IMG/VR virus record: IMGVR_UViG_3300043434_000548
Location: 1-24,764 of that record
Source: a virus
Length of the DNA stretch: 24,764 nucleotides
Strand: one strand, 5' to 3'
Positions 2,097 to 24,764 of this stretch are shown in pieces. The notes under the pieces are model-generated. The model worked only from the letters and a program-made list of their open reading frames with translations, searched no databases and was not told where the DNA came from. Position 1 is the stretch's first letter, and every line of letters starts with the position of its first letter. Both the position numbers and the translations under genes were made by a program.

Positions 2097-2477
2097 ATGA
2101 GAAATTTTAAAGGCTTTAGCACTGTAGGTAAAACTCATGGTAGTTTTAAGCTATATGATATTGAGTTAGTAAAACAAGACTTACTCAACGAATTTTACAC
2201 CAAAAAAGGCTCCAGATTGATGAGTCCGCAGTTTGGCAGTATGATCTGGGATCTATTATTTGATCCCTTAACAGAAGAAACCTTGGAATTAGTAAAAGAG
2301 GACTGTGTTAGAATTGTTAGCAGAGATCCTAGGCTAGAGTTATTGGACGTGTCTACTTACGAAGAAGAACACACCATACAAGTTATATTACAATTGCGAT
2401 ACGTACCAACCACCACTTTAACAGAATTGGTGTTAACATATCAACGCGATATATCAGCACAGCAAAATCAGGAATAA
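2097..2477 (+). CDS. Baseplate wedge subunit gp25-like (126 aa)
   Basis: The protein matches the gp25/GPW family of baseplate wedge proteins, the lysozyme-like fold shared by contractile tails and type VI secretion (TssE). Supporting features are the length (T4 gp25 is 132 residues), the segment TKKGSRLMSPQFGS around residues 35-48, and the motif RDPRLELLDV around 76-85, the place of the conserved EPR motif. Here the first residue of that motif is Asp. gp25 holds the sheath-initiating end of the wedge together with gp6 and gp53 in T4. It is directly followed by gp6, three bases after its stop, which is a typical pairing. The start is placed at the ATG at 2097 because no later methionine precedes the conserved core; there is no ribosome site. 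Confidence 0.92.
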   Translation: MRNFKGFSTVGKTHGSFKLYDIELVKQDLLNEFYTKKGSRLMSPQFGSMIWDLLFDPLTEETLELVKEDCVRIVSRDPRLELLDVSTYEEEHTIQVILQLRYVPTTTLTELVLTYQRDISAQQNQE

Positions 2478-2480
2478 ACG

Positions 2481-8900: not shown

Positions 8901-11900
8901 ATTATACAAAAGTTATCTTTGCATCTGAATTTGCAAATAAAACTGTAACCATTAATTATTGGCCGGATACTTTTAATAGCAGAGTGCCTGCCAGTTTGGC
9001 AAAAATTGGTTTATCTGCATGCTACGTGCCTGAAATTTACAGGGATTCTAGTTATTCCGGTGACGTATATTTTATCATTAGGCATGATGGATCTAAATAT
9101 TATTTAGAAGACGGCGCCAGCGAAGTCAACGGAAAATTGTATCCTGTTGACACCTTGGACCAGTTATTGTTTGAATACGAAAAAGCGATATGGAGTAGTA
9201 TTGCTCGAGACATAGAAATAAATTCATTTAAGAATTTATATAAGAATATCCCCGGTGCTTTCCGTACTACTAGATACACTTATGGTGAAGTACTGGAATT
9301 AACCAGTATAGAATCATATGCATGGATGCAAGATAATAATATTTTTACATTTAAAAATACGACCTATGATCAAACGAATCCATTTACATACAACTATCAA
9401 ATAGGAACCGGAGACGACGATACTACAATTACAGGTACTTGGCGCGCAGTTTACAAGTATTACTTTGACACAGATCGTCCACATACGCATCCCTGGGAAA
9501 TGTTGGCACACACCGTTAAACCAACATGGTGGGACGCTCATTATAGTTGGACTGACGAAGTTAAACGTAACAAATTGATTACAGCATTGGCTACGGGCAA
9601 TAGAGCAGAACCTGGTACGACTCCGGATATAAATGTCTGGCTGGCAAGAAGTACTGGATTTGACGAAAGTTTTACATTTCCTGTTGATTATACCACCGGT
9701 GAATTATTGGCACCAACACAAGTAGCTTGGCTGGCAGAAGTTTTAGACTATTCTGAAGAACACTGGCAACCTGGCGACATCAGTCCCTATGAACAAGTAT
9801 TTTTAAGTACTCAGCGCGGAGTAGCGGCGCAGGCGAAAACTTTGTACATGACTTCACCTACTACGTTTGTCAATGACAAATGGGTTCCAGGTAATGTTAA
9901 GATCAATGAGTTCGGACATAGGCTGGACAAAGAAACTGGATTCTGGCTATCGCCAAACATAGAGCATGTCTATCATAGACAAACAAACAACGACGGTTCT
10001 ATTAATTTCACAGCAGGTATAGAAAGTCTCTTTGCAGAATTTTGTATACTATACAACAGAGATTTCGCCACAGAGGTAGTCGCAGTATTGAATAACACAG
10101 AAATAAACAAGGAATTCTTACTTAGTGGTTTTTCAAATAATAACAATGTTAGAATGCAAAGCACAAGTACTCCTAACCAAACAACCAGTTTGTTTGTACC
10201 CGAAGAAAGTTATACAGTACGAACACTGCACCATTATCCAGAAAATGAAGATTTTTATTCTGCAATGAGAATAGTCTGGGACGGCAGTGCCTGGGCTGTT
10301 TATGGATTTACCAACGAAAATTCTTTGTTCAGTTATTTTGTACCAGTTGATGGTAGCTCCACAGTATCTCAGACTGTGGGTAATTTTACAATCAAAGAAA
10401 AAACAAATTACAATAAAAAAGATGTAGCTAAACTTAGGTATGGTACATTGTTTACAACTAGACAAGATTTATACGATTTTATTATCGGTTATGGAAAATA
10501 TCTAGAAAATATTGGTTTTGTTTTTGAGGACGTTGAAACCGGCGATGTTAGAAATTGGCAGTTAAGCGCCAAGCAATTTATATTCTGGAGCAATGATCCG
10601 CTGGAAGCAGGTAACTATATTGACTTAAATCCTGCCGCTGACCGCATAGTAATTAAAAAGAATACAACACAATTGTCTAATTTACTGGGGTCTAATATCA
10701 ATGTTGGACAAATCGTTGACAGACTAAGCCAACCTATGTTCAGCAACGACATACTAGTTAATAGAGATGATGCGGATTCCATAGTAATAACACCAAGAAG
10801 TGCAAATAAACCTGTATATGGAATTAAACTTATATTTGTAACCTACGAAAGTGTATTACACTTGTCCGGGCGCAGTGCGTTCAATGACATATATTTCTTA
10901 CCTGAACAAGCTACGTCTAAAAGAAGTTATGTTTTGGCCGGTAAGAAAACCGACGCATGGACCGGAAAATATGATACTCCTGGATATATCATAAGCGGTA
11001 CTGATATTATTCCTAATTATGATACCATGGCGGATACAGGTAGAACTTTACTGGACGTAGAGAATGTATTGCATGACACCGACATGTTAGAAGCAAGCAG
11101 GGGTCAATTTGGACTTAATAGAAATCCAGAATTGAGACAATTATTCTTACAAGAGCAAAGCGAAACCTTGTTCAAAACAGGTATAGCGTTTACCAAAGGC
11201 ACACAGCAAGTTTTTAATGCACTGGAGCCATTAACACACAAAGACGGTTCTAATACAATCGCTTATGAGGAATACATGGTTCGTACCGGTGAGTTCGGCA
11301 ATACTAGTAACATAGATTTCTATGAATTTGAAATTACTCAGGCAGACCTTGTAAAAGATCCTCAGATTATAAAATTCCAAGTAGATGATCTTGAATCAGA
11401 TCGTATAATCTACGTAGGTGATCGAGGCAGCCGCTGGGTACACAAACCCTATGGTAAAAATCTAAGATTTAATACTTTTAATAAGAACTATAGTATATTC
11501 AATACTACAGGACCTGTAATCAACGGTGACACTGATTATATTGTAAGTTCTGTTGATACTTTGACGTCCATGTATGCAGACTTTGAACAATTATGGAGCA
11601 TACCTGCATATGACGCTACTGCATCATATAAGAAAAATGAACAAGTGCGAATCAATGGACGCCTGTATGTTGCAAACAAAATTGTGTCGCCAAATACATG
11701 GACAGTTAATCAAGCATATTTCTCTCCGATCAATGAACCATATCTACCCAACGTTTTTGTTGAAAAATATGACACTGGATCAACATGGCAAGTATTGCAG
11801 TTAATGGATTTAGATATAGGTATCACAGAAGCATGTCCTGGACCCAGTGATACCAGCAAAGCACGTATAGCAACAAATAAAAATCATGGATTGGTCAAGG

Positions 11901-14797
11901 ATGATCTAGTATTGTTAGTAAATGCGGACAATGGAGCCAGCAGTGTAAACGGTGTTTGGCGAGTAGACGGCATAGAACAAATTGGTCCAAGCCATTATTT
12001 TTATATAAACACAAACATTCCAGGTACTATTAAAACAGGCAAAGTTTTTGTATTCAGACCGGTTAGATTTAAAACAGAAGAAGAATTAAACGCTGCAAAA
12101 GCCAGCGGCAAGTATGTTTGGAATAAAAAATTTAATCCAAGAGATAATGCACTGGGTACAGCAAACATAATCCCTCCACTGACAGCCAGTGGATATAGTA
12201 CAGTGTATCCTGTGGCCATTGTGGATGATGCAGTTGGTTCGGACAATACTATTGGATTCGGCAATTATAAAGTTTATCAGTTATCCAAAGACGAAGACAA
12301 CAATGACATAGCCACAGTGGTTAAATCACAGAGTTTACCTGTAGATCCCGGCAACATTGAGCATTTGGTAATTTATAACAAACTCAGTGGAAAAACTTTG
12401 GCCAAAGTTGACATCTTCGATCCTAAGAAATTTAAGCTACCACAGGTATTTTTAGACGACATAGATATTGTAAACCGAGTAGATCCTGCAAAATATACAC
12501 AGTCCAGCGATCCCAGCAAAAACTTGTATATCAGCACAGCTTGGTATGATGCCAATATTGGAAGACGTTGGTGGGATACCAGTACCGCACAGTTCGAAGA
12601 CTACGAAAGTGGTACCGACATAGATCGTTCTAAGTATTGGGGTAAAACAATCAATGATAAAAATCCTGATATCTATGAATGGACAAAGAGCACAGTGCAT
12701 CCCAGTCAATGGGAATCACAGGTAAAAAATAAAAAGGACATGTTTGGTGACACTGCCAGTGGCGAAGCGTACTTTAATGTTAGTACCGGTGTAAAAAATT
12801 ATTACTGGACAGAAAAAACAGAACAGACCAATGGGCAAAACTTTACAGTCTACTATTTTTGGGTTAAAAATAAAACAGCTATCCCAAAACAAAGTAAGAA
12901 ATCCAGAGTTTATTCTGCGTCACAGCTAAGTGCAGTTCTATTAAACCCCAGTGCAGCGGGTATACCATGGTGGGCTCCAGTTAGCAACGATTCTATGATT
13001 ATCAAAGGTGTTTCGGATCTGATCACAGATGCTGGCACAGTAATACAGATAAAATTAAAATCAAAAGGCGAGGAAAAGAATCAGCAATGGTTGTTTGTTT
13101 CCGATAATAATCCATTGTTTATTATTCCAGAATGGATGCACCTGCGAATGAGGGACAGTCTTGCAACATTTGTAACATTAAAGTATCAGGAAAATAACCA
13201 AGTATTTTATACTAACAAGAGAGTGCCAGACCTAAACAACTTGCATCCTTACAATAGAGTGGGTAATTCTATTAGACCGTACATGCAATCTTGGTTTAAG
13301 GATCCTATAGAAGCTAGACGCACATTTATTAAGAAAGTAAACCAGTTACTACTAACCATGGACTTAACCAACGGACTGGAAAACTGGGATCAACGTTTGT
13401 CACAGACAAATTATACACTGGGTGATCAAGTAATAGACATGACAACTACATGGTATTACGCTGATTATAAGAGCAGTAAATATGACGATAAGAAATCTAT
13501 TACAAACGTTTTTGACACACAGGCGGATCTATTAAATGCAAACGTTTATCAGGGAGAATATGTTAAAGTAACAGGACAAAATGTTATATATGAAAAGCAG
13601 TTAGACGGCGGCTATGATGTTGTCTTTAGATACAACGGAACCATACAATTTGTAGATGATCTGTATAAAAATGTATATTCAGAAGTCTGGGGAGATACAC
13701 CCTGGGACTACGATCTTAATGCACAGATCAGTGTTATAGTTGATGCATTACGTTATAACATATTTGTTCAAGAGTATAGGGTTAATTATGTTAATGCAAC
13801 CTGTGCTATGTTGCGTTATGTGTTAAGTGAGCAGTTAGATGTTGATTGGGTACTTAAGGCCAGCACAGTGTTATCTACTAATGTAGCAGTGGCATCTTTT
13901 ACTAGAGACCACGAATTACAACGAGATAATTTAGCAGTTTTAAATACATTCTACAAGTCTGTTAAAGCGTTTAGGGATAAGACCAGAGGCGGTGATATAT
14001 CAAAGAATCAGTTAGAAGACAATAATATTGCTGTTGAAGAATTCCCTGTACTTAACATACAATTAAACTATAACAGGCATGATTTTGGTAGTACAGAACA
14101 GTTAGGTACTACCTTGGACGGTCTGAGATTTGTTAATGTAGGCTGGGATGATGACCAAGCTAAATGGGATAATTTACCTTTTGATCCTGATCAGGCTGAC
14201 AACAGCGCACTAATTGAAAAAATATATAAGGGATACAGTGGTATACCTGCAGGTTCATTGGATAAGTTAATCACAGGTTCAGTTAAAGGCAAGTACCACA
14301 GAACAGGTCTTGGTGAAGAAGTTGTTTACAGCAATGTTACAGATAATCTGATACTGAACATCACACATGAAAATACTACAGTAAGAGAGCATTACCATAA
14401 TAACACCATGGCTGCCACAGTGTTGCTAAATGAAACTTCTTTGACCACTGCGATAACTGGAGAAGTTAACTTTATAGCACTTTCTGACATGTCAAATGTA
14501 CCAGATGCCAGCTATGAAAACATGCAGGCCATCTGGGTAAATAATGAAAGAATAGCGTATGCAATCAGAGAGGAATCTGGTATATCGGGTCTAGTACGAT
14601 GCACTGCGGGGACAACCATGCAGGATCACAGTATAGATTCTCCGGTGTATATAGAAAATTCTCGCACAAAATTGCATGGTTATATACCTTTGCAGAGTTT
14701 AAATAATACTACACAATTCTATAATGATCCTGGTAAGTCTCTTGCTGACAGTGAAAACTTGACGGCAGTAAATATCATGAATTATAGTACTAGTTAA
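5924..14797 (+). CDS. Giant virion structural protein, probable baseplate component (2957 aa)
   Basis: This single open frame of 2957 residues takes up more than a third of the window. It resembles the very large structural proteins encoded after gp6 in marine T4-like phages, some of which are annotated VrlC. A recognisable example is PNQTPLFEFFDTNG at residues 437-450. Most of the protein is beta-rich with many Tyr, Asn, Asp and Trp residues and no membrane segment or signal peptide. Residues about 1893-1942 look like a small carbohydrate-binding-type fold (ASYKKNEQVRINGRLYVANK). Residues about 2835-2911 hold an IWVNNERIAY...GLVR...GT module shared with the gp6 insert. By position it could stand in for gp7, the T4 wedge protein of 1032 residues; that is inference. 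AGGA lies seven bases before the ATG, which overlaps the gp6 stop. Confidence 0.8.
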   Translation: MSEINKKPGQTKARKIKNEALLPSILQTEPNKKMLGATLNAMTSKGQMLPFKETHGHRTAPSGADTFFKQESDPVRRESMANTAIIANDDSGNFLSKTSYLDLENYFRVKGLPLKDGVQLDSDILTLELPIDYRRLVDYQLYYWVDHGLPAIRLHLDTAKYTISTDILSKPFVTVKDDLTGKELEFASGQTVYFTGEQEQRYLTTDLDKPKLFYIVGIGSAIRLLDVGAFDERLPTGYFKKRPWDKLELAIDPPSIRWDSENWDGSRFSIGSPEYVVMRRFTPDANHWSSFDRWYHISAIHAVTRFLDLDIEDIARNDNQARRPIISFNSGIRLYNWPRRSLGEVKTLLSGAREDYQTRTNIVDSLNYKLKNGDKVIFEKTQGIWRVSNIGTGAQFTLTQNSADYDGVMLTALTSRLYYRAIYKNSIWQLAQNKVEPNQTPLFEFFDTNGTNLENVENANFRGGVILGFMPGPTYDIILNKYVTISNIDYDAIDETKSGAVGANQIKFTTDIDRDFGYFNSVTKTDVSMKGPWAYSKAAGNLPFYIPRQGLDLSPQLQDLTYEEYEDEAWSVEIIPAVNGFNELHVYPNNNGDVDLYYKLNGLALTKFTTKTSTNNVESFIPLVSGGIFKIYCHGLEHPLALHGTGMVNNVLGPVDIAEQVISNNGITNGVITLDLSETYNNGTEYVVNEFGQDRVRLYWSYNNSIRTAIVKPIEKWRFINNAYYLDKSSPVYHDYDYNITDSTAYDAGLTFKQKLTGTVALSNKATTGDKIGLESFITNNTDKTAPISLTINPLNQTIDTLNYYSLYQHGRVSLSASPTARESTDPGAVYYDINNINLRFNGGTLIKHNNPLAKTALVAAAMPFDLTDILIKQGKHYDTFMTRLITELKQVINNYDTEKYTQLQLIGLALDSIYVNQKDNDNFWYHSNMIGWGQTVNTVDIALTSNLELSLLSSIGEISHVAGKERLMHIVADGRVLNRSVDYQLVSELEGYYTKVIFASEFANKTVTINYWPDTFNSRVPASLAKIGLSACYVPEIYRDSSYSGDVYFIIRHDGSKYYLEDGASEVNGKLYPVDTLDQLLFEYEKAIWSSIARDIEINSFKNLYKNIPGAFRTTRYTYGEVLELTSIESYAWMQDNNIFTFKNTTYDQTNPFTYNYQIGTGDDDTTITGTWRAVYKYYFDTDRPHTHPWEMLAHTVKPTWWDAHYSWTDEVKRNKLITALATGNRAEPGTTPDINVWLARSTGFDESFTFPVDYTTGELLAPTQVAWLAEVLDYSEEHWQPGDISPYEQVFLSTQRGVAAQAKTLYMTSPTTFVNDKWVPGNVKINEFGHRLDKETGFWLSPNIEHVYHRQTNNDGSINFTAGIESLFAEFCILYNRDFATEVVAVLNNTEINKEFLLSGFSNNNNVRMQSTSTPNQTTSLFVPEESYTVRTLHHYPENEDFYSAMRIVWDGSAWAVYGFTNENSLFSYFVPVDGSSTVSQTVGNFTIKEKTNYNKKDVAKLRYGTLFTTRQDLYDFIIGYGKYLENIGFVFEDVETGDVRNWQLSAKQFIFWSNDPLEAGNYIDLNPAADRIVIKKNTTQLSNLLGSNINVGQIVDRLSQPMFSNDILVNRDDADSIVITPRSANKPVYGIKLIFVTYESVLHLSGRSAFNDIYFLPEQATSKRSYVLAGKKTDAWTGKYDTPGYIISGTDIIPNYDTMADTGRTLLDVENVLHDTDMLEASRGQFGLNRNPELRQLFLQEQSETLFKTGIAFTKGTQQVFNALEPLTHKDGSNTIAYEEYMVRTGEFGNTSNIDFYEFEITQADLVKDPQIIKFQVDDLESDRIIYVGDRGSRWVHKPYGKNLRFNTFNKNYSIFNTTGPVINGDTDYIVSSVDTLTSMYADFEQLWSIPAYDATASYKKNEQVRINGRLYVANKIVSPNTWTVNQAYFSPINEPYLPNVFVEKYDTGSTWQVLQLMDLDIGITEACPGPSDTSKARIATNKNHGLVKDDLVLLVNADNGASSVNGVWRVDGIEQIGPSHYFYINTNIPGTIKTGKVFVFRPVRFKTEEELNAAKASGKYVWNKKFNPRDNALGTANIIPPLTASGYSTVYPVAIVDDAVGSDNTIGFGNYKVYQLSKDEDNNDIATVVKSQSLPVDPGNIEHLVIYNKLSGKTLAKVDIFDPKKFKLPQVFLDDIDIVNRVDPAKYTQSSDPSKNLYISTAWYDANIGRRWWDTSTAQFEDYESGTDIDRSKYWGKTINDKNPDIYEWTKSTVHPSQWESQVKNKKDMFGDTASGEAYFNVSTGVKNYYWTEKTEQTNGQNFTVYYFWVKNKTAIPKQSKKSRVYSASQLSAVLLNPSAAGIPWWAPVSNDSMIIKGVSDLITDAGTVIQIKLKSKGEEKNQQWLFVSDNNPLFIIPEWMHLRMRDSLATFVTLKYQENNQVFYTNKRVPDLNNLHPYNRVGNSIRPYMQSWFKDPIEARRTFIKKVNQLLLTMDLTNGLENWDQRLSQTNYTLGDQVIDMTTTWYYADYKSSKYDDKKSITNVFDTQADLLNANVYQGEYVKVTGQNVIYEKQLDGGYDVVFRYNGTIQFVDDLYKNVYSEVWGDTPWDYDLNAQISVIVDALRYNIFVQEYRVNYVNATCAMLRYVLSEQLDVDWVLKASTVLSTNVAVASFTRDHELQRDNLAVLNTFYKSVKAFRDKTRGGDISKNQLEDNNIAVEEFPVLNIQLNYNRHDFGSTEQLGTTLDGLRFVNVGWDDDQAKWDNLPFDPDQADNSALIEKIYKGYSGIPAGSLDKLITGSVKGKYHRTGLGEEVVYSNVTDNLILNITHENTTVREHYHNNTMAATVLLNETSLTTAITGEVNFIALSDMSNVPDASYENMQAIWVNNERIAYAIREESGISGLVRCTAGTTMQDHSIDSPVYIENSRTKLHGYIPLQSLNNTTQFYNDPGKSLADSENLTAVNIMNYSTS

Positions 14798-14812
14798 ATA
14801 ATATGGTAAATA
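14795..14812 (+). promoter_or_regulatory. Two candidate late-type TAAATA boxes
   Basis: TAAATA occurs at 14795-14800, overlapping the TAA stop of the giant gene, and again at 14807-14812. The second is at a suitable distance for a leader of about ten bases carrying the AGGA ribosome site at 14820-14823 before the ATG at 14831. Confidence 0.5.
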
Positions 14813-14830
14813 ATACATTAGGATAAACAA

Positions 14831-15457
14831 ATGATCGAAGATACGAATATAAACATAGATGGACACGTTAAGATTTGGGACCCAACTACTCAAGAAGTTT
14901 TTGTGGACAAACACAACGCCATCAACCCAGAAACAATGAGCATTATTGTTGCTAACCAACTGGCTGGCAATAACGGAAAATACGTGTTCGAAATGCATTT
15001 CGGTAACGGTGGTATTGTTATCGACGAAACTGGTAATATTACATACAAAGACGTAACAGTGAATCTAAATAACGGAACGGTTGCGTCTTTGTTTAGCCCG
15101 ACCTACTTTAAATTACTAGATTCAACCGATACTAGAAACACTGATTCACAAAAGAATAAGATAGAAGTTGCTCACACTTTGGGTCTGAGTTATTCTGATT
15201 TGATTATCACCTGTACATTAGATCGCGAAGAACCCAGTGCAAGTGATCTAGGAAATCTTGTCAATGTAGATCAACAGGCCATGGATACGGCAGCAGACTT
15301 TGCCGGGGAGTTCGTTTTCAATGAGATTGGCTTAAAGAGTAAGGGATCTGAGCTTAACAACGGTTACTTATTGAGTCACATTGTTTTTCATCCTGTGCAG
15401 AAAAGTGCAAACCGTACAATACAAGTCGTTTATACGTTGCGTATACGTATAACATAA
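14831..15457 (+). CDS. Virion structural protein of unknown role (208 aa)
   Basis: The protein belongs to a type common next to baseplate and fibre genes in marine T4-like phages. It begins with a short strand segment (INIDGHVKIWDPTTQEVFVD, residues 7-26), then the pattern NAINPETMSIIVANQLAG and the motif FEMHFGNGG around residue 57. It ends in a beta-rich C-terminus (IQVVYTLRIRIT). No enzyme motif, signal peptide or membrane segment is seen. Its exact place in the virion is not known to me; baseplate periphery or fibre attachment is the likely setting given its neighbours. AGGA lies seven bases before the ATG. It sits between its own late-type boxes and those of the next gene. Confidence 0.7.
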   Translation: MIEDTNINIDGHVKIWDPTTQEVFVDKHNAINPETMSIIVANQLAGNNGKYVFEMHFGNGGIVIDETGNITYKDVTVNLNNGTVASLFSPTYFKLLDSTDTRNTDSQKNKIEVAHTLGLSYSDLIITCTLDREEPSASDLGNLVNVDQQAMDTAADFAGEFVFNEIGLKSKGSELNNGYLLSHIVFHPVQKSANRTIQVVYTLRIRIT

Positions 15458-16425: not shown

Positions 16426-17427
16426 TTGGCAGTAGAAAAGGGTCAAAAGATAACAGCAATAGATTATAACAATCTAGCTGCTGGTATCAACAAAGTATTT
16501 GCAGATGTATTCCCTAATGCAGCTCCAGCTACTGCCGAATCGGATAGATTAAATCAAGAGTTTGGCTGGGGTAATAGCTCTGCAAATAATGTAGAAATAG
16601 GAATGAAAATAACCGCCGGCGTAGTCAACGAACTAGTGGATCGTGTTAATATCAGCGCCGAGCATGTTGGATCACAATACGAATTAGATAGAGTTATCAC
16701 TGGTCAAAAAATTACAGCGGCAATCTGGAATGATATTGAAACTGTGATCGAGGACATAACTCCCCAGAAAAATGAAGCCGCACTGGGACAAACGGCGATC
16801 ACAGAACTGGGAGCCCTGGCCAAGACAACACCATTTGATGCCAGTGTTGTATTTCAAACTATATTAACTTTTCCAGACTATGACCATGCTAGATATTATT
16901 TTAACAGTGGCGGTGTCGTCAAACTATATCTTGAAAAATCTAGCGGTAATTCTGTAGATGAGTCCTGGGCTTCAGCATATACACGCTTGGGCACAGTGAG
17001 TCTGGCACTTAGAAATACACTGAGCACAACATCAAACGTAATCAGCGAAAATAAAGGTTTTGAACATTTAACTGACGCCAATATGTTATTATTAACATGT
17101 ACGCAAAATGGCAATGGTGGTTATGGCTATGGTGGTTATGGCTATGGTGGTTATGGCTATGGCTACGGATATGGCTACGGATATGGTTATGGCACCAATG
17201 GGTCTAAACGTATCAAAGTATTTGGGAAGATAGTGCCAGAAACAGGCAGTGACTATCAAACTGGTTCTGTAAAACTAATCATCGATGTCAGTTTAGAAAA
17301 TGCTGCGGCACAATTCACCGAAGGCACACATACATTATATATTCAAAGCAGTAAGGCAATCAGTAAATCTTCTGGTACAGTTTCCTTTTCAATAAACAAT
17401 CCACAATTTTCTGGATCTGTTGTCTAA
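16426..17427 (+). CDS. Tip/adhesin-like virion protein with Gly-Tyr repeat (333 aa, TTG start)
   Basis: The N-terminus has three copies of a helix-type motif: KGQKITAIDYNNLAAGINKV at 5-24, IGMKITAGVVNELVDRVNI at 58-76 and TGQKITAAIWNDIETVIEDI at 92-111. Similar segments occur in phage structural proteins. Residues about 120-225 are beta-rich. Residues 231-259 are a pure Gly/Tyr run made of three GGYGY units and then GY pairs. A beta-rich C-terminus (about 262-333) follows. Glycine-rich loops are known in T-even gp38 adhesins, where they contact the host receptor; applying that here is inference. No signal peptide or membrane segment is present. The gene directly follows the tail-fibre-like gene and ends at a terminator, closing the structural operon. 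Host-recognition tip protein is the best guess. Confidence 0.65.
   Translation: MAVEKGQKITAIDYNNLAAGINKVFADVFPNAAPATAESDRLNQEFGWGNSSANNVEIGMKITAGVVNELVDRVNISAEHVGSQYELDRVITGQKITAAIWNDIETVIEDITPQKNEAALGQTAITELGALAKTTPFDASVVFQTILTFPDYDHARYYFNSGGVVKLYLEKSSGNSVDESWASAYTRLGTVSLALRNTLSTTSNVISENKGFEHLTDANMLLLTCTQNGNGGYGYGGYGYGGYGYGYGYGYGYGYGTNGSKRIKVFGKIVPETGSDYQTGSVKLIIDVSLENAAAQFTEGTHTLYIQSSKAISKSSGTVSFSINNPQFSGSVV
17116..17184 (+). repeat. In-frame tandem repeat encoding GGYGY and GYGY units
   Basis: Three perfect tandem copies of the 15-mer GGTGGTTATGGCTAT occupy 17116-17160. Two perfect copies of the 12-mer GGCTACGGATAT follow at 17161-17184. Both unit lengths are multiples of three, so gain or loss of a unit keeps the reading frame. 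The exact identity at DNA level, including third positions, points to recent slippage or expansion. Confidence 0.95.
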
Positions 17428-17445
17428 ACACTAATACCATTATCT

Positions 17446-17475
17446 AAACCTAAAACTCTTAGGTTTTTAATTTTT
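17446..17475 (+). terminator. Rho-independent terminator closing the structural operon
   Basis: AAACCTAA (17446-17453) pairs with TTAGGTTT (17459-17466) around a five-base loop and is followed by T-rich sequence to 17475. It lies 18 bases after the Gly/Tyr protein stop. The stem is AT-rich, so termination may be partial. Confidence 0.75.
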
Positions 17476-17481
17476 GCCAAC

Positions 17482-17487
17482 TAAATA
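17482..17487 (+). promoter_or_regulatory. Candidate late-type TAAATA box for the glycosyltransferase operon
   Basis: CTAAATATT lies just after the terminator and 28 bases before the ATG at 17516. GGAG at 17505-17508 provides the ribosome site. This would start the long operon that runs past the right edge. Confidence 0.55.
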
Positions 17488-17515
17488 TTAACACAGCATA
17501 TAATGGAGCAAATTT

Positions 17516-17869
17516 ATGGATGACAAGCTCAAAGAAGCACTGGAATTTAGTAATTTCAGACTTACACTAAACAATCAAAAACAAAATCTCAAACAGCGTA
17601 TGAATACTATGCTAACCATAGGCTATAATGGTCATATGTTTACATCCAGATTGGAACTGATAAATTTCGTAAAACAGTTACTGGATCTAGGTGTAAAAAA
17701 ATATGTATTCTTAGATGACAATGAAAATCCTGTAATGATCACAGATCTATTAGATTTTCATAGTAGGTTAATGAGCCTATACACAGAAGCGCTCAATGAA
17801 TATTATGTTGAGCATGAAAAAATTAAAAAAATGAGAGATACCAAAAAGCTAGTGGGGCTAAATGTTTAA
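17516..17869 (+). CDS. Small conserved phage protein of unknown function (117 aa)
   Basis: The product is a small soluble protein with a helical N-terminus (EALEFSNFRLTLNNQKQNLK), a central short strand region, and LDDNENPVMITDLLDF around residues 66-81, followed by a charged C-terminal helix. It resembles, from memory, hypothetical proteins encoded near tail genes of cyanophages and other marine T4-like phages; no function is known to me. GGAG seven bases before the ATG is a good ribosome site. It heads the operon after a terminator and a candidate late promoter, and its end overlaps the following glycosyltransferase gene by 8 bases, so the two are probably translated together. Confidence 0.7.
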   Translation: MDDKLKEALEFSNFRLTLNNQKQNLKQRMNTMLTIGYNGHMFTSRLELINFVKQLLDLGVKKYVFLDDNENPVMITDLLDFHSRLMSLYTEALNEYYVEHEKIKKMRDTKKLVGLNV

Positions 17870-18764
17870 TTCTGAATTTGACACTGGTGTATTGTTAATA
17901 GCTTATAATAATCCAACTCTGGATTATACAAAACTGGCCTGCATTGCCGCAAGATCAGTAAAAAAATATATGAAGCACAATCATGTTACTTTGATGACAG
18001 ATTTACCATCATATAGAGAATTGCAAGCAAACATTGGCACAGAGTTAATAAAAATGACTTTTGACAATGTCATTGTCGAAGAAATAGAACATGAACGCAA
18101 TACTAGAAGTCACAGAGATAGTCCATGGACTGAATTCGTAACACAGTTTAATAATAAAAATAAACATACAATCTTTCACAAGAGCCCGTATAAAAAAACA
18201 TTGATGATCGACGTTGATTATTTTATAGGCAACAATACTCTAGATCTTATATTTGAAACTAACAGTGATCTTGCCATGTACAAAGATGCAATCAGTGTTA
18301 GAAACTATGAACCACGTATCTGGGAACAAAAATTGCATCCGGATGGTATTGACATGTGGTGGAGTACAGTTGTTTACTGGAACAAAGACAGTGAAGCTGC
18401 CAGATTGTTTTTTGGTATCTGGGAACATGTCAAAGAAAACTATGATTATTATAAGTGGCTGTACAAATTTCCAGGTAGACTTTTTAGAACAGACTATGCC
18501 GCCAGCATTGCAGTGCATTTACTAAACGGACAAGTTAAAAGTTCATTTACAGATCAACTGCCTGGAAAGGTTATGAGATTCAGTGAACAAATCGACGACA
18601 TAGTTAAATTTGATCAATTAAACGACTATGTTCTTTTGTGTCCAGATCCCAAGGAACCCTGGAAAAATATCTGTAGTAGAATTAAAAATGAGAACGTCCA
18701 TGTTATGAATAAAAAGGCGATCTTAAGGCACGAAAAAGAATTATTTAAATTAGCTTATGAGTGA
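17862..18764 (+). CDS. GT-A-type glycosyltransferase-like protein (300 aa)
   Basis: The protein has the layout of a nucleotide-sugar glycosyltransferase of GT-A fold. It starts with a Rossmann-like strand (DTGVLLIAYNN, residues 7-17). The segment KKTLMIDVDYFIG places a DxD motif at Asp117-Val118-Asp119, which in this fold binds the metal and sugar nucleotide. A second half with WWSTVVYWNKD is the acceptor side in related proteins. Similar proteins occur in cyanophage genomes annotated as glycosyltransferases. Donor and acceptor cannot be named. It overlaps its neighbours by 8 bases on each side, a sign of tight coupling. The next gene product appears to be a diverged paralogue. Fold assignment is fairly secure; catalytic activity is inferred. 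Confidence 0.75.
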   Translation: MFNSEFDTGVLLIAYNNPTLDYTKLACIAARSVKKYMKHNHVTLMTDLPSYRELQANIGTELIKMTFDNVIVEEIEHERNTRSHRDSPWTEFVTQFNNKNKHTIFHKSPYKKTLMIDVDYFIGNNTLDLIFETNSDLAMYKDAISVRNYEPRIWEQKLHPDGIDMWWSTVVYWNKDSEAARLFFGIWEHVKENYDYYKWLYKFPGRLFRTDYAASIAVHLLNGQVKSSFTDQLPGKVMRFSEQIDDIVKFDQLNDYVLLCPDPKEPWKNICSRIKNENVHVMNKKAILRHEKELFKLAYE

Positions 18765-19605
18765 AGGTTACTTAATACCGTTATTGAATGATGACACTGT
18801 CACGCAAGTTGAATTATTGGCTTGCTCGATCAAAGCCATAGATAAAACCAGGCGTGTAGTGGCAGTGGCAAATAAAGAATTTAAAGGACTTCGCGGGGTA
18901 GATAGTATTATAGTCCCCGAAGGCATCTGCGATGATAACACGTTCAACTATTTCTATAGTTTGTTAAAAAGTCCTTTTGATAAAACCATTGCGTTTCTGC
19001 CAGATCAAATATTAACTAAGTTTAATGTTGACGTCTGGGAATCACTTAGGGGTCTTGCCGGAGTTGTAGTACCAAAAAACAAACATAATTTTGCCGGGGA
19101 AACATCACCCGGTAATGCTTACTGGACAGGTTCCATGGAATTAAAATCCTTTGGCATTGCTACCAATCTTAATGCAGTATATTTTAACAAAGACAAAGAC
19201 GCATGTGATATACTAGGATTCGCTTTAAAAATATGCGGATCCTATAATCAGAAAGAAGCCACTGCATGGGCACTGGAAAAACAGCGCGAAAGCCAAGAAC
19301 TTTACTTGCCATATTTCCCCGAGTTTCTCTGGATAGAATGGGTAATGTCCTTTATTAGAAAAACTTCGCAGGATAAGATCATGGAGTTTGATTTTGTAAA
19401 TTCTATAGATCTCAGTATTCAGGAAATGAACCACTGGTCTCCGCATTGGAGTAAAGAGCCATGGTCAAGGTTTTTAAATTATTGGGTAACCGACGAAGCA
19501 GAAATTAAAATAGAAAATTTTATTCAACTTGGTCTCATTAGATATCAGCATACAGGCTGGTTAACAGATAAAATAAAGAAAGTATTCAAGAACAACGATG
19601 AGTGA
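18757..19605 (+). CDS. Glycosyltransferase-like paralogue with degraded DxD (282 aa)
   Basis: This protein aligns by eye with the preceding one. KTIAFLPDQIL (residues 76-86) sits where that protein has KTLMIDVDYFI, and LNAVYFNKDKDACDILGFAL matches its STVVYWNKDSEAARLFFGIW. The first aspartate of the DxD is Leu81, and only the second (Asp83) remains. The usual metal/sugar-nucleotide site is therefore probably lost or altered, and the protein may be a non-catalytic partner, a binding protein, or an enzyme with another metal ligand. No signal peptide or membrane segment is seen. It overlaps the genes before and after by 8 bases. The relationship to a glycosyltransferase fold is supported by the alignment, but function is open. 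Confidence 0.65.
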   Translation: MSEGYLIPLLNDDTVTQVELLACSIKAIDKTRRVVAVANKEFKGLRGVDSIIVPEGICDDNTFNYFYSLLKSPFDKTIAFLPDQILTKFNVDVWESLRGLAGVVVPKNKHNFAGETSPGNAYWTGSMELKSFGIATNLNAVYFNKDKDACDILGFALKICGSYNQKEATAWALEKQRESQELYLPYFPEFLWIEWVMSFIRKTSQDKIMEFDFVNSIDLSIQEMNHWSPHWSKEPWSRFLNYWVTDEAEIKIENFIQLGLIRYQHTGWLTDKIKKVFKNNDE

Positions 19606-20614
19606 GTTCGATTGGTCAAAGCCTGTTCTTGAGTTAAAGGATCAGGACAGTGAACAAGAGGAATTTGATTTACAGCCGCGACTATTAAAACGTAGAGAAA
19701 ACAAACTAAAAAGATTTTACATAGAGTATAACAAACTTACTAGGCACATAGTAGAAATAACACCGGAACACAGGGAAACTACGAATAATATCAGGCATGC
19801 TATATTGGCAACATCCAAAGTAGATCTAGTAGCTGATATTTTTTCTGGCAAATGCCCACTATCAAAAATAAGCGTAATATATGATAACTTGACCAAGAAT
19901 TATGATATCAGTCTAAATGATAGAATGTCCAAAAAAACCGAATTCGATTATGTATTTGCCAGCGCAGATACAATTGGGCCTATTCACTTATACTGCGATT
20001 TAGTTTTTAAAAAAATACGAATTAAAATAGACTATGACAAGTTTAAGAAATATGTATCTTCGGACTGGTCCACAGAAGAAAGCCTTCAGCGAAGCAATAT
20101 AAGTATCAGCATATTCTGCATGGATTCTACAGATAGAACACGTTTGTTCGACAAATTGGTTGTAAATGTATTTGAGTTATGCACCCTGGAAACACTGGAA
20201 TTTAACTGCGCCTGGTTGCCCGACAGTCAGGAAGAATTTGAAAAAATAGCATTTGTATATTATGACAACGATCTGAGACTTACATATTCATTGAATAATA
20301 TGCAACATAGTGTTCTAGAAAATGAAGTTAGTAGACCACAGATAGTTTACAAACAAAAAGAAGACAGTATGATAATTCAAAGTATTATGATGAATACCAG
20401 CAGTTATAAAATCAATGAACAAATCACATTTTATTTTTTCGACAAAGAAAATCCAACAGTGTTATACGACGTGAAAAAAATCCCTAGTGCATCGTTAAAT
20501 AACTACGGCGTTTTAGAGATTGATATAAATTTTAATAGACCCGCCAGTGTGATTACAGACCACTTACATATATACTTAGAGGACAGCGATGTTAGTACCG
20601 ATTACAGATTTTGA
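19598..20614 (+). CDS. Unrecognised protein in the glycosyltransferase operon (338 aa)
   Basis: I do not recognise this protein. The N-terminal 25 residues are acidic and probably disordered (DQDSEQEEFDLQP). A basic helical segment follows (LLKRRENKLKRFYIEYNK, about residues 29-46), and the rest alternates hydrophobic strands and charged turns, suggesting a beta-rich domain. No DxD, Cys cluster, Walker motif, signal peptide or membrane segment is visible. It is translated as part of the operon: its ATG overlaps the previous stop by 8 bases, and its last 26 bases overlap the next glycosyltransferase start. Its position between two glycosyltransferase-type genes suggests it serves the same pathway, perhaps as the acceptor or a binding component, but this is only context. 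Confidence 0.7.
   Translation: MSEFDWSKPVLELKDQDSEQEEFDLQPRLLKRRENKLKRFYIEYNKLTRHIVEITPEHRETTNNIRHAILATSKVDLVADIFSGKCPLSKISVIYDNLTKNYDISLNDRMSKKTEFDYVFASADTIGPIHLYCDLVFKKIRIKIDYDKFKKYVSSDWSTEESLQRSNISISIFCMDSTDRTRLFDKLVVNVFELCTLETLEFNCAWLPDSQEEFEKIAFVYYDNDLRLTYSLNNMQHSVLENEVSRPQIVYKQKEDSMIIQSIMMNTSSYKINEQITFYFFDKENPTVLYDVKKIPSASLNNYGVLEIDINFNRPASVITDHLHIYLEDSDVSTDYRF
20578..20583 (+). promoter_or_regulatory. Ribosome binding site inside the upstream gene
   Basis: AGAGGA lies five bases before the ATG at 20589, within the coding sequence of the 338-residue protein. It supports this start rather than the in-frame ATG at 20625, and so supports the unusually long 26-base gene overlap. Confidence 0.7.
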
Positions 20615-21560
20615 TATTGTTTTTATGAGTTTGGATGAACCAAACGCAGATAAAAATTATGCAGATCTACAAACAAAAGCCCCCTGGGCCAAGCGTATAC
20701 ACGGCGTTTATGGCAGCGATGCATGTCATAAAGCCGCTGCCAAAGTAGCAGAAACAGAACGCTTTATTACTGTAGATGCAGATAATATCGTGCATGAAGA
20801 TTTTTTCAATATTGAATTGGATATGAATAAAATAGGCAAACACGATGTAGTTAGCTGGGCTGGCAAAAATATAATCAACGGACTCGTTTATGGTAATGGC
20901 GGTATCAAAATGTGGCCAAAACATGTGGTAGAACAAATGAAAACTCATGAAGCTGCCGATGATGCCAAAGCACAGGTTGACTTTTGCTGGGATATCTATT
21001 ATCATCAAATGAATAATATCTACTGCGATGTTCATAATAATGGCAGTGCATATCAGGCTTATCGCGCAGGTTTTAGAGAAGGTGTTAAGTTAACACTGGA
21101 CGGTGGTGTTACTGTTGATCCACGATTAATCAAGGAACGAGTGCACGAAAGAAACTATAAGCGTTTGTTGGTATGGTCCAGTGTGGGCGCAGATGTACAA
21201 AATGGTTTATGGGCTATGTTTGGAACTAGACTGGGTGCATACATGACTAATCTGTCCAGAGAAGGATTTGATTTTAAGAATGTTCGTGATTTTAAATGGC
21301 ATGACGCATTTTGGAAAGAAAGTATTCAGCCACAGTTCGCCGGCGGCAATGAAAGATGCCTAGCAACAGGCTGGGTATACGACAAGAAAAAATTGCAAGA
21401 CGAGATATTCAAACTAGGAGAAGTATTACGTAGTAGACTGGGTTTTGAAATCGCAGAATTAGACGTAAACGGTAGTAAGTTCTTCAAGGAAAGCTGGATA
21501 AATCCTCCGCGATTAGGCGCATTAATAAAAGAAACACAAGTAGATAATTCAATAGAATGA
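20589..21560 (+). CDS. GT-A-type glycosyltransferase with DAD motif (323 aa)
   Basis: The N-terminus DFDIVFMSLDEPNADKNYADL (residues 7-27) and WAKRIHGVYG are followed by HKAAAKVAETERFITVDADNIVHEDF. This last segment places a DxD-type motif at Asp63-Ala64-Asp65. The pattern is recognisable from glycosyltransferase-like proteins of cyanophages and other marine phages. The DxD aspartates coordinate the metal and the sugar nucleotide. The C-terminal half is rich in Trp, Arg and Lys and probably forms the acceptor site. Donor and acceptor are unknown. The chosen start has a good ribosome site. It overlaps the previous gene by 26 bases and the radical SAM gene by 4 (ATGA), linking sugar transfer and radical chemistry in one transcript. 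Confidence 0.8.
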   Translation: MLVPITDFDIVFMSLDEPNADKNYADLQTKAPWAKRIHGVYGSDACHKAAAKVAETERFITVDADNIVHEDFFNIELDMNKIGKHDVVSWAGKNIINGLVYGNGGIKMWPKHVVEQMKTHEAADDAKAQVDFCWDIYYHQMNNIYCDVHNNGSAYQAYRAGFREGVKLTLDGGVTVDPRLIKERVHERNYKRLLVWSSVGADVQNGLWAMFGTRLGAYMTNLSREGFDFKNVRDFKWHDAFWKESIQPQFAGGNERCLATGWVYDKKKLQDEIFKLGEVLRSRLGFEIAELDVNGSKFFKESWINPPRLGALIKETQVDNSIE

Positions 21561-22942
21561 CAAACCCATTATATCAATTTAGAGATGAACTAAATTCAGT
21601 AAGTGATAGTTTCTGTATAGCCAAATGGAAACAAGTAACACTGCATTTGCAAACCGGGCATACACATAGTTGTCATCATCCAACCACACACAAGATCCCA
21701 CTGGAGGAAATTACAGTCAATCCCAGTGCATTACATAATACGAGTTATAAAAAGAAACAGAGAAAGATGATGTTAACTGGCACTCGTCCACCAGAGTGCG
21801 AATATTGTTGGCGCGTAGAAGACAGTGGCGCAGATGCCATAAGTGATCGAGTTTACAAAAGCAGTGACAGCTGGGCACGTAAGCATCTCAGTGAGTGTGC
21901 TACCAAGCCCTGGGACTTTGATGTTGCACCCAGTTATTTAGAAGTAAGTTTTAGCAGTGTCTGCAATTTTAAGTGTAGCTATTGTACTCCAGAAGTCAGT
22001 AGTTCCTGGATGGAAGAAATCAAACAACACGGCGCTTATCCCACCAGCAATAAATTTGCAGATATAGAATGGCTTAAAAAGACAGACAAGCTACCCATAC
22101 CGCATAACCAATATAATCCATATGTTGAAGCATTTTGGCAATGGTGGCCAGACATTTATAAAGATCTTCAACATTTTCGCATCACTGGCGGTGAACCCTT
22201 GCTGGCCAAGGATACATTCAGAGTACTTGATTATATCATAGAAAATCCTAATCCAGATCTGGATCTAAGTATTAATAGCAATATGTGTATTCCGGATTCT
22301 GTACTAGATAAGTTCATAGAAAAAGTAAAGCATATATGTGCAGAAGGCAAAGTAAAAAAGTTTAAAATTTTCACTAGCTGTGATGCCCATGGTCCAGCCG
22401 CAGAGTATATTCGTGATGGCTTAGATTATGAACAATGGTTGACTAACATACAAAAAATGTTGGACGCTGTGCCTGAATGCACGTTTACTATAATGAGTAC
22501 GTACAATGCACTGAGTTTGGGCAGTTACCTAGACTTCATGAAAGACGTACTTGTAATCAAGAAAAAATATGGCGGAATTAATGGTAGACGCCATCCTCTT
22601 ATACTAGACACACCGTATCTGCGTTACCCACCGCACCAAGCGATTTTCATACTGCCTAATAGCTGGGCGGATAAGGTAAAAGAACAGGTTGATTTTGCTT
22701 ATGCAAATTTAACAACAGATGAAGAAAATTCTGGATTCGCAGTCTGGGAAGCAGACAAGTTTAAGCGTTTATATGAGTTAATGCTAACTAAAAAAGATGT
22801 AGGTTCTTTGGGTAGTAGAGTGGCAATAGAACACAAAGACTTTGTGGCATTTGTCGACGAGCATGATCGTAGACGTGGCACGGATTTCTTGGCGACATTT
22901 CCTGAATTCACAGAACTTTATAATTATTGGAAACGTAATTAA
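21557..22942 (+). CDS. Radical SAM enzyme with N-terminal Cys cluster (461 aa)
   Basis: The radical SAM signature CNFKCSYC has cysteines at 136, 140 and 143 (CxxxCxxC), which bind the 4Fe-4S cluster that cleaves S-adenosylmethionine. FRITGGEPLL at 208-216 is the GGE motif that contacts SAM. Before the core are further cysteines: Cys20, Cys39 (in SCHHP) and Cys81/Cys84 (CEYC, followed by a conserved-looking WRVEDSG). This matches the N-terminal layout of phage and bacterial proteins often annotated as twitch-domain radical SAM proteins, where extra cysteines may hold a second cluster. Substrate is unknown; related enzymes modify peptides or sugars. It overlaps the upstream glycosyltransferase by ATGA and is followed after two bases by an SGQ-family gene. 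Radical SAM assignment is secure; the reaction is not known. Confidence 0.93.
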   Translation: MTNPLYQFRDELNSVSDSFCIAKWKQVTLHLQTGHTHSCHHPTTHKIPLEEITVNPSALHNTSYKKKQRKMMLTGTRPPECEYCWRVEDSGADAISDRVYKSSDSWARKHLSECATKPWDFDVAPSYLEVSFSSVCNFKCSYCTPEVSSSWMEEIKQHGAYPTSNKFADIEWLKKTDKLPIPHNQYNPYVEAFWQWWPDIYKDLQHFRITGGEPLLAKDTFRVLDYIIENPNPDLDLSINSNMCIPDSVLDKFIEKVKHICAEGKVKKFKIFTSCDAHGPAAEYIRDGLDYEQWLTNIQKMLDAVPECTFTIMSTYNALSLGSYLDFMKDVLVIKKKYGGINGRRHPLILDTPYLRYPPHQAIFILPNSWADKVKEQVDFAYANLTTDEENSGFAVWEADKFKRLYELMLTKKDVGSLGSRVAIEHKDFVAFVDEHDRRRGTDFLATFPEFTELYNYWKRN

Positions 22943-22944
22943 TA

Positions 22945-23688
22945 ATGGATCTAACAGGCAGGATTGCTATTTGTTTTAGCGGGCAGATTAGAACTGGCAT
23001 TGAAAACTCAGAAAGCCTGTTAAAATATATAGGCCATCTGCGTGATACAGTAGATATTTTTATACATACCTGGGATATCGAAACAATGAGCACACACGCA
23101 ACGGAACATGCCGATATTGCTAATGTGGCAGACATACGCAGATCAGTAGAAAAATTCGAGTTTAACGAGATTGTAAAAATATACGATCCCATTGATATGA
23201 GAGTGGATAATTTTGATTTATATCAAAATATTCATTATAAACGTGTGATAATGAGAGAAGGCTATTGCCATGCACAAATACCTATGTTTCAAAGTATTTG
23301 GGAATCAAATCAATTAAAAAGAAATTACGAGTACCTGAGTAACAGTAAATACAATCTTGTTATGCGACTACGATTTGACATAGATTTCGGAGAGGACAGA
23401 ACTCTAGAACAGGATATGAATTATATCGGCACTAAAAAAGACATGCTATATGTTGTTGATTTCGGTAATAAATTCCCCAATGCCATAGAAGATGTGTGCT
23501 GGTTGGGTAGCAGTGAAGTTATTGATACTACCTGCGACTTTGCCATAGAACGAGAATCAAAAAAGAACAGCACAGACTGGCAGTCCCACCATGCAGAATA
23601 TCTTGCAGCAAACAATATTAAAATACGACCCTTTAAGGATAACACAATAAAAATTGTACGAAGAAACATATTAAATACACAAATATGA
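22945..23688 (+). CDS. SGQ/HTWD-motif putative glycosyltransferase-like protein, copy 1 (247 aa)
   Basis: This is the first of three tandem paralogues. It opens with IAICFSGQIRTG (residues 7-18), then VDIFIHTWD (36-44), and in the middle has YNLVMRLRFDIDFG (136-149). These three landmarks recur in phage and bacterial proteins placed with surface-polysaccharide genes, some annotated as glycosyltransferases. The RxRxD segment may be the equivalent of a DxD metal site, but I cannot confirm the reaction. No signal peptide or membrane segment is seen, so it should act in the cytoplasm. It starts two bases after the radical SAM stop and overlaps copy 2 by 4 bases. A clear ribosome site is lacking, so translation probably depends on coupling. 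Confidence 0.7.
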   Translation: MDLTGRIAICFSGQIRTGIENSESLLKYIGHLRDTVDIFIHTWDIETMSTHATEHADIANVADIRRSVEKFEFNEIVKIYDPIDMRVDNFDLYQNIHYKRVIMREGYCHAQIPMFQSIWESNQLKRNYEYLSNSKYNLVMRLRFDIDFGEDRTLEQDMNYIGTKKDMLYVVDFGNKFPNAIEDVCWLGSSEVIDTTCDFAIERESKKNSTDWQSHHAEYLAANNIKIRPFKDNTIKIVRRNILNTQI

Positions 23689-24560
23689 AAATAGCACTTT
23701 GTTTTAGCGGTCAACCAAGGACCTGGGATAAATGCAATCCTACTTGGCAAAAACTTATCAGCAAAATTAAAGACAAATACGATGTAGAAACGATAGATAC
23801 ATTTTGCCACGCTTGGGATTTCAATACTCCACCGCATGCAGTTTTAGCCGCAGATGGTGCCGTTAGTAAACAACTTGTTGATGATTATATAACAATCAAA
23901 GGCGTCCCGCTAAGTGCAGAAGAAAAAACCACATTTTTATCTTCACTTAATCCTGTTAGGTATATGTTTCATGACGAACTGCACAGTAAAAGTCGTGCCA
24001 AAGAACTACGAAAATGGGCTGAGTACCAGCAAGAAAGACACGGCGGCACTTCTCTGGAGTGGGCTGCCAGCCAGTTCTATGCAGTCATGTATAGTGCACA
24101 TTTGAAAAAGCAGTATGAGATAGAGCATGGATTTCGTTATGACATCTGTTTTAGAATGAGATATGATTTATTTTTTGATGATCATCAAATAAATTGGTTC
24201 CTTTCGGACGAAAGCAAAGACTTAGTGTATCCAGAATACAATACATTCTATAGCTGTCACACAGGCAAAGATAACAGCCAGTATCCATTTCATAGAATGG
24301 GCGATATATTTTGGTATGCAGACAGCGTTACCTTTGATAGGATCTGTGATTTTTATCGTTGGTTACCAGTAATAGGGCGCAGGTCCTTTAATGAAAATCA
24401 CGTGTCTACGGAGCATGCATTGTATTTTTATGCAAAGATGTTGCGTATGAATGTAAGACCCATATCAATAGACCCAAAAGTCTATAGACAAAGTGATTAT
24501 ATTCAAAGAAAGTTGGCAGCAGGCCTGGATGGAGGATTAGGCGGTCATGAGCTCATCTAA
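23685..24560 (+). CDS. SGQ/HTWD-motif putative glycosyltransferase-like protein, copy 2 (291 aa)
   Basis: This second tandem paralogue begins at once with KIALCFSGQPRTW (residues 2-14). It has CHAWD at 41-45 in the place of HTWD, and RYDICFRMRYDLFFDD at 151-166 in the place of the RLRFDID segment of copy 1. The middle contains an added helical stretch (ELRKWAEYQQERHGGTSLEW, 107-126) that copy 1 lacks. The aspartates after the RxRxD segment are candidate metal ligands. The ATG overlaps the copy 1 stop by 4 bases, and the stop overlaps the copy 3 start by 14. Function is inferred from operon context and the family's usual company, not from a proven activity. Confidence 0.7.
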   Translation: MKIALCFSGQPRTWDKCNPTWQKLISKIKDKYDVETIDTFCHAWDFNTPPHAVLAADGAVSKQLVDDYITIKGVPLSAEEKTTFLSSLNPVRYMFHDELHSKSRAKELRKWAEYQQERHGGTSLEWAASQFYAVMYSAHLKKQYEIEHGFRYDICFRMRYDLFFDDHQINWFLSDESKDLVYPEYNTFYSCHTGKDNSQYPFHRMGDIFWYADSVTFDRICDFYRWLPVIGRRSFNENHVSTEHALYFYAKMLRMNVRPISIDPKVYRQSDYIQRKLAAGLDGGLGGHELI

Positions 24561-24764
24561 TAAATTTAGAATAGCAGTATGTTTCAGTGGTCAGGCTAGA
24601 CACTGGAAATCCTGTGTTGAAAATATTAAACGATTTTTTGTATTTGATGTTAGTCACCCAGTGACTGGACAGGATATTGAAACAGATTTCTTTATTCATA
24701 CCTGGGATACAAATACTTGGCGTAACCCCAAGGAAGACCACAGCGTATTTCGTAATGAAAAGCA
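24547..24764 (+). CDS. SGQ/HTWD-motif protein, copy 3 (5' part, runs off right edge)
   Basis: An open frame from the ATG at 24547 gives 72 residues to the edge. It starts MSSSNKFRIAVCFSGQAR and continues to a DFFIHTWDTNTW segment, so it repeats the first two landmarks of the preceding paralogues. GGAGG at 24531-24535 lies 11 bases before the ATG, and the gene overlaps copy 2 by 14 bases. The diagnostic RxRxD region lies beyond the window. Family membership is clear from the motifs despite truncation. Confidence 0.8.
   Translation, partial: MSSSNKFRIAVCFSGQARHWKSCVENIKRFFVFDVSHPVTGQDIETDFFIHTWDTNTWRNPKEDHSVFRNEK

Follow-up and report, generated by a model that had tools for sequence, protein, structure and literature searches.

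A conserved fibre-linked operon of predicted glycosyltransferases and a radical SAM enzyme in an uncultured virus, with a possible role in late glycan synthesis

Results

The operon and its conserved core

The IMG/VR virus record IMGVR_UViG_3300043434_000548, analysed here over its whole length of 24,764 bases (the window) with open reading frame (ORF) and PHROGs assignment of genes, ends in an operon of predicted glycosyltransferases (GTs) and a radical SAM enzyme that lies directly behind a gene for a tail-fibre-like protein. Genes A to H occupy positions 17862-24764 and comprise seven complete ORFs and one truncated by the window end, all on the plus strand (as are z117, the fibre gene y with its repeat, the hairpin, the late-promoter-like motif and the baseplate and tail genes described below) and overlapping or 2-4 bp apart, in agreement with the original prediction, made from the sequence alone, of eight consecutive and mostly overlapping genes. 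The extent given in that prediction enclosed real genes, but it began too late and stopped short of the operon's end: the first gene is z117 (17516-17869), which encodes a small conserved protein (alignment A5), overlaps A and is found at the same position in all loci, and in a close relative (locus L037) the operon extends at least 9 kb beyond the point at which the window ends.

Viral contigs were scanned with E, A, the upstream fibre y, the SGQ-family proteins (F, G and H) and z117. The z117 scan is unbiased as to GTs and radical SAM enzymes and covers the best 80 loci by similarity, very distant z117 relatives lying outside its coverage. Once near-identical loci had been taken out, 39 loci offered 5 kb or more of downstream sequence, and 36 offered 8 kb or more. 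The order fibre-z117-A-B-C-D, with A and B following directly and D no more than five genes on, was present in 39 of 39 distinct loci; E (above 300 bits) was present in 29 of the 36 longer loci, and some radical SAM homologue in all 36. Among the loci recovered with the SGQ proteins, 76 of 80 also match the E profile within the retrieved sequence, which reached up to 10 kb on either side. The gene borders within the core are overlaps (medians over 87 distinct loci: z-A -7, A-B -8, B-C -14 and C-D -17 bp). z117-A-B-C-D is a fixed, strongly conserved core adjoining fibre genes. Linkage to fibre genes across marine phages, which had been proposed as a check, thus holds in every locus of the unbiased set, and the earlier idea of one coupled pathway gains support from this co-conservation in many phages.

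Compared with the closest relative (L002), genes A-H are under purifying selection, with ratios of non-synonymous to synonymous substitution (dN/dS) of 0.01-0.18. A, D and E, at 0.01-0.02 (0.012 for A), are nearly fixed. The ratio is higher for the fibre y and for B, C and F, and of these y, B and C change rapidly together. Co-divergence between B and C is robust (0.5-0.66), while A, D and z117 form a slow group.

Predicted glycosyltransferases

Most members of the operon have no match in a Pfam search. A (17862-18764) is a predicted GT-A glycosyltransferase, possibly GT8/glycogenin-like, with DVD as its DxD motif. It groups in one family with its homologue B (18757-19605); the family has no Pfam match, and its profile (A4) aligns with glycogenin-1 (GT8) at an E value of 3e-4 over about 100 residues. 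In the lineage of the window the DxD of B is replaced by LPDQ, and since B of other phages retains DTD or DVD, the loss is lineage-specific. D (20589-21560) is a further predicted GT-A enzyme, in which the DxD residues D63 and D65 are invariant. Its AlphaFold2 model (pLDDT 89, pTM 0.89) finds as best Foldseek matches in the PDB the nucleotidyltransferase HddC and the GTs TarP and SunS; phage GTs are also matched. A degraded DxD among these three front GTs had been predicted correctly; it is that of B, and the motif of D is to be corrected to an invariant one.

Between B and D lies C (19598-20614), a conserved multi-domain accessory protein that had been regarded as an orphan. This classification was rejected: C is one diverged family, which 122 of 129 loci have in this position, mostly with two or three matched domains per protein; in L060-L062 its domain forms part of B, and in L088 and L089 part of A. 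These fusions tie C to the GTs.

Downstream of the radical SAM gene E, three SGQ-family proteins stand in tandem, as predicted: F (22945-23688, phrog_13607), G (23685-24560) and H (24547-24764), the last truncated by the window end and 274 aa long when complete, in L002. The AlphaFold2 model of G (pLDDT 93, pTM 0.91) places what had been only a named family: all its top Foldseek matches in the PDB are GT-A enzymes of families GT31 and GT6 (probability 0.9-1.0, TM 0.3-0.5), a metal-independent bacterial GT6 enzyme being among the best. F, G and H are accordingly classed as predicted GT-A-fold glycosyltransferases, G by structure prediction and F and H by homology to G. A single sequence family uniting the SGQ proteins, D and A/B was also considered and rejected, there being no similarity between the profiles; the fold class alone is common to them. 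In L037 the copy of G (L037:3690-4562) is interrupted at codon 78 by an in-frame stop, and one more SGQ paralogue lies directly before it; this may reflect ongoing gene replacement or a sequencing error.

The radical SAM enzyme

E (21557-22942) is the sole operon gene in the window with a curated family. It matches NCBIfam NF033640 (twitch domain-containing radical SAM) with 356.8 bits against a cutoff of 170, over model positions 1-398 of 398, and its assignment as an N-terminal-twitch radical SAM enzyme, as well as the earlier claim of such an enzyme in the operon, is secure at the level of sequence. The CX3CX2C cysteines C136, C140 and C143 and the N-terminal cysteines C20, C39, C81 and C84, putative ligands of an auxiliary cluster, are invariant in 133 of 133 diverse relatives; beyond C143 no conserved cysteine, and hence no C-terminal SPASM motif, was found among them. 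BtrN is a twitch enzyme that acts on a carbohydrate.

Distal genes in relatives

The content of the operon beyond the window can be read from L037 (E 94% identical), L043, L045 and L061. There, E and the SGQ genes are followed by genes for DUF6071/SGNH-like proteins, a small GT-like protein, a cupin, a fusion of a sugar-1-phosphate nucleotidyltransferase with an APH-type kinase, a carbamoyltransferase, and SnoaL-like, shikimate-dehydrogenase-like (AroE-like) and GatZ/KbaZ-like (aldolase-like) proteins; the labels "SGNH-like" (where Pfam gave no match) and "GT-like" (the small gene) denote N-terminal motifs judged by eye. Other relatives carry genes for UDP-glucose dehydrogenase, an epimerase, GT7 and a methyltransferase, and several radical SAM paralogues stand in tandem in L017, L019 and L026. 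Judged by these family matches, the downstream gene content is an inventory for building and tailoring sugars. Another phage has, within a radical SAM cassette, a GT7 (galactosyltransferase-like) domain fused to a laminin-G/concanavalin-like lectin domain (L018:6850-8304).

A product other than a glycan has to be weighed against this inventory. The operon might make a diffusible or injected small molecule derived from sugars or amino acids, or a natural product of peptide origin whose maturation depends on radical SAM enzymes; the arrays of radical SAM paralogues and the carbamoyltransferase, AroE-like and aldolase-like genes would suit such a product, and a similar idea has been put forward for a cyanophage cluster (PMC7824862). 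We consider it improbable. The core contains several GTs, E is devoid of the conserved C-terminal SPASM cysteines, and no export gene was seen among the downstream ORFs scored. A precursor peptide hidden in the core was ruled out, as the overlapping genes (median gaps of -7 to -17 bp) leave no space for it, although a precursor could be encoded elsewhere. That the operon makes a glycan of some kind is, in our estimation, very probable.

The upstream fibre-like gene and a putative late-type promoter

The gene directly upstream of the operon encodes y (16426-17427), a tail-fibre-like protein with a Gly/Tyr tract, recognised by homologue comparison; y is homologous in 19 of the first loci, always ahead of z117. 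The tract is encoded by a tandem repeat of 15-bp and 6-bp units (17108-17193, Tandem Repeats Finder). The original prediction had singled out this repeat protein as the obvious substrate of the operon. A Gly/Tyr tract is found upstream of the operon in only 11 of 43 distinct loci; it therefore cannot be the operon's reason, and we rejected it as a general substrate, while it may serve as an acceptor in the window's own lineage. The length of the tract differs between relatives, and the repeat could vary through replication slippage.

Between y and z117, a terminator-like hairpin read from the sequence (AAACCTAA-AACTC-TTAGGTTT, 17446-17466) is followed by a T-rich tail; an 8-bp stem with other bases precedes z117 in L002 and L033. 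Next comes a late-promoter-like CTAAATA (17481-17487) and, at 17499-17504, TATAAT. HTAAATA is the core of the T4 late promoter (TATAAATA). Of 82 loci, 49 have the motif in the 60 bp ahead of z117, compared with 8 of 82 shuffled sequences; it also stands before 65 of 89 upstream tail genes. Before inner operon genes it is present in 11 of 397 cases, about 20-fold more rarely than before z117. When TATAAATA was counted over the whole window with one mismatch allowed, its number equalled chance; it is the shorter HTAAATA before genes that is enriched. This motif, common to z117 and the tail genes, supports the late-region setting claimed at the outset, and suggests that z117-A-B-C-D is transcribed from a late-type promoter along with the tail genes.

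The left part of the window holds a DNA ligase fragment, an HNH endonuclease gene, and genes for gp25-like and gp6-like baseplate wedge proteins and tail proteins; according to PHROGs, the gp25-like protein, the gp6-like wedge, a 2957-aa virion protein and a 208-aa tail protein span 2097-15457. The gp6-like and 2957-aa proteins are nearest to those of the jumbo myoviruses SCTP-2, Atu_ph07, RaK2 and PA5oct (24-42% identity), and gp6 alone has the same four as top matches at 31-42%. The source is best explained as a large contractile-tailed aquatic phage that carries the 5' part of a late-expressed glycosylation operon. A homing endonuclease may be encoded by the HNH gene (1456-1998), which separates the ligase region from the baseplate genes. 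Rfam and tRNA searches gave no matches.

This setting bears on the proposal that the GTs modify bases of the phage DNA against restriction, in the manner of T4. Phage GTs are often DNA-modifying, a point also discussed in PMC12619734; here, however, the GT genes are linked to tail genes and not to genes of replication or base synthesis, and several GTs together with radical SAM, carbamoyltransferase and SGNH-like genes surpass known base glycosylation. We regard DNA modification as highly improbable.

Cellular relatives

Cellular members of the E family were found almost entirely in Bdellovibrionota, where E is present in 25 of 114 genomes sampled (about a fifth). The tree of E requires at least 11 changes between phage and cell on well supported branches (15 in all, versus 33.9 with shuffled labels), from which it appears that E was exchanged between phages and Bdellovibrionota repeatedly, at least about 11 times. 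Four loci in bacterial metagenome-assembled genomes (MAGs) of Neomarinimicrobiota, Pelagibacterales and Bdellovibrionaceae (L132, L139, L151 and L155) carry phage-like z-A-B-C-D or sugar cassettes, likely as binning errors; they were treated as phage contigs binned into bacterial genomes and left out of the cell counts. The near restriction of E to Bdellovibrionota among cells (L116-L157; G001-G115) is compatible with phages that infect these bacteria or share genes with them in some other way. On a contig of a Bacteriovoracaceae MAG (L277, G006:C183), a D-type GT lies amid several radical SAM genes whose families are those of the phage cassettes, and htpG-like and maf-like genes are nearby.

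Discussion

We propose that the z117-A-B-C-D core is expressed late, together with the tail genes. The distal genes seen in close relatives would provide an activated sugar and tailor it, through an NTP (nucleoside triphosphate) transferase-kinase fusion and cupin isomerase-like, aldolase-like and dehydrogenase-like enzymes, reactions suggested by family matches. E would act on the sugar or glycan by radical chemistry; by analogy with BtrN, oxidation or epimerisation is the likeliest outcome. The GT-A enzymes A, D, F, G and H may then attach sugars sequentially, with B (which has no DxD) and C as a putative non-catalytic or acceptor-recognising partner. The acceptor would most likely be a tail-fibre protein from the neighbouring genes, and the new virions would bear a lineage-specific, fast-diversifying glycan.

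The chief competitor of this proposal is that the operon alters the host surface polysaccharide late in infection through membrane machinery of the host, so as to exclude superinfection or to keep the progeny from sticking to debris. PMC7029224 proposes such a role for GTs in the host recognition cluster of pelagimyophages, PMC7824862 does so for cyanophage GT clusters, and the sugar-activation genes within the operon would serve it equally. The membrane-gene content speaks on the other side: the 99 loci have 1171 ORFs downstream, of which 1151 are without any predicted membrane helix and a single one has at least three. No flippase, ligase, polymerase or initiating transferase was thus seen, whereas the known GtrABS serotype conversion is membrane-based. 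The fixed linkage to fibre genes and the late-type motif likewise tell against a host-surface role, and a full modification of the O-antigen during a lytic cycle would likely be futile (PMC11990801). Host-surface modification is in our judgement rather unlikely, and we favour late glycosylation of the virion fibre over it: fibre linkage, late motif, lack of membrane genes and the divergence of y, B and C all speak for an acceptor present late in the cytoplasm, of which a fibre would be an example.

Several observations weigh against the fibre proposal. The helices were scored by a simple hydropathy rule, on ORFs of at least 80 aa, and the lack of membrane proteins is compatible with the use of host ones. 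No acceptor was identified. Taken over all pairs, y and B co-diverge at 0.43, but the value drops to 0.09-0.19 among close pairs, and the mirror-tree link of y to B or C, seen over all pairs, is regarded as weak. Structure prediction, which had been suggested as a check, gave GT-type folds for both D and G, but the Foldseek TM-scores are low (0.2-0.5), and therefore support the fold class only and leave the reaction unsupported. The cellular relatives, too, point elsewhere: in L121, L125 and L133, E lies near apparent genes of an ABC-type polysaccharide exporter (assigned by sequence reading and without a family search), as the host-surface alternative would have it. Relatives of D were found in two of eight genomes tested; one of these genomes has one copy amid phage-type radical SAM genes and a second beside aminotransferase-like and epimerase-like genes. 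Read from their neighbouring genes, the cellular contexts of E and D fit a general surface-glycan role as well.

On this evidence, we see the virion, in the form of the tail fibre, as the target of glycosylation with arguments evenly balanced. The composite reading, in which widespread large aquatic phages possess a late virion-glycosylation machine made of a z117-A-B-C-D core by the fibres and a twitch radical SAM enzyme that tailors the glycan, is put forward tentatively, at somewhat less than an even chance. If it is true, the adsorption organelles of these phages contain phage-made glycans beside protein, models of host range and receptor binding change, the N-twitch radical SAM family receives a first function and DUF6071-type genes a context. 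A fibre target would also account for the large sugar clusters that uncultured aquatic phages carry in their tail regions. That phages and Bdellovibrionota appear to have exchanged the radical SAM gene repeatedly indicates an unexpected host or gene-sharing connection.

Comparison with known systems

Glycosylation of virions by phage-encoded GTs has a precedent in mycobacteriophages (Freeman 2023, as cited in PMC12619734), where structural proteins are likewise modified. As summarised there, the glycans are on the capsid and tail tube, whereas the present operon has at least six GT genes together with a radical SAM enzyme and, in relatives, sugar-synthesis genes beside the fibres. D resembles a GT of Che8 at the level of fold only, in the Foldseek comparison. 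A search of the open literature for glycosylated tail fibres found nothing. Systems of the GtrABS type have a membrane flippase and membrane-bound GTs, for which the scored downstream ORFs, with a single multi-helix protein, offer no counterpart.

Moraphages are large aquatic phages with four GT orthogroups in their core genome, described with no mention of radical SAM enzymes (PMC12619734). The sugar clusters of the jumbo cyanophages P-SSM2 and S-SSM6a (PMC7824862) share with the operon GTs, cupin isomerases, nucleotidyltransferases and carbamoyltransferases, but were described without radical SAM enzymes and without a fixed linkage to fibres. As for NF033640, E is a clear member of the family and is tied here to a phage fibre and GT operon.

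The closest parallel is the host recognition cluster (HRC) of pelagimyophages and cyanomyophages, a hypervariable island past the large baseplate protein VrlC, with tail fibres, GTs (mostly GT8) and radical SAM cassettes, described in 2020 (PMC7029224). The window has the same layout of fibres, GTs and a radical SAM gene behind a large baseplate protein. The best matches place its carrier outside the pelagimyophages and cyanomyophages: gp6 (31-42%) and the large tail protein are closest to those of RaK2-, PA5oct- and Atu_ph07-type jumbo phages. The HRC paper reported no fixed core and favoured modification of the host O-chain (PMC7029224).

The original prediction had considered the operon its best candidate for an undescribed system. 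This holds for the fixed core, which was not found in the GenBank phage collection searched and is described in none of the searchable open literature. It does not hold for fibre-island cassettes of GTs and radical SAM enzymes, known since 2020 from the HRC, or for an abundance of radical SAM genes, since a T4-like environmental genome with 12 of them was described in 2017 (PMC5332604). When 50,697 GenBank phages were searched by tblastn at an E value of 0.01, none of z117, A, C (445-aa form) and D found a counterpart; E was matched only at 24%, in two Vibrio phages, and SGQ-like proteins are present in some cyanophages. As far as sequence comparison can tell, the operon is a real and strongly conserved relative of the fibre-linked glycan islands of aquatic myophages, and its fixed core appears to be new.

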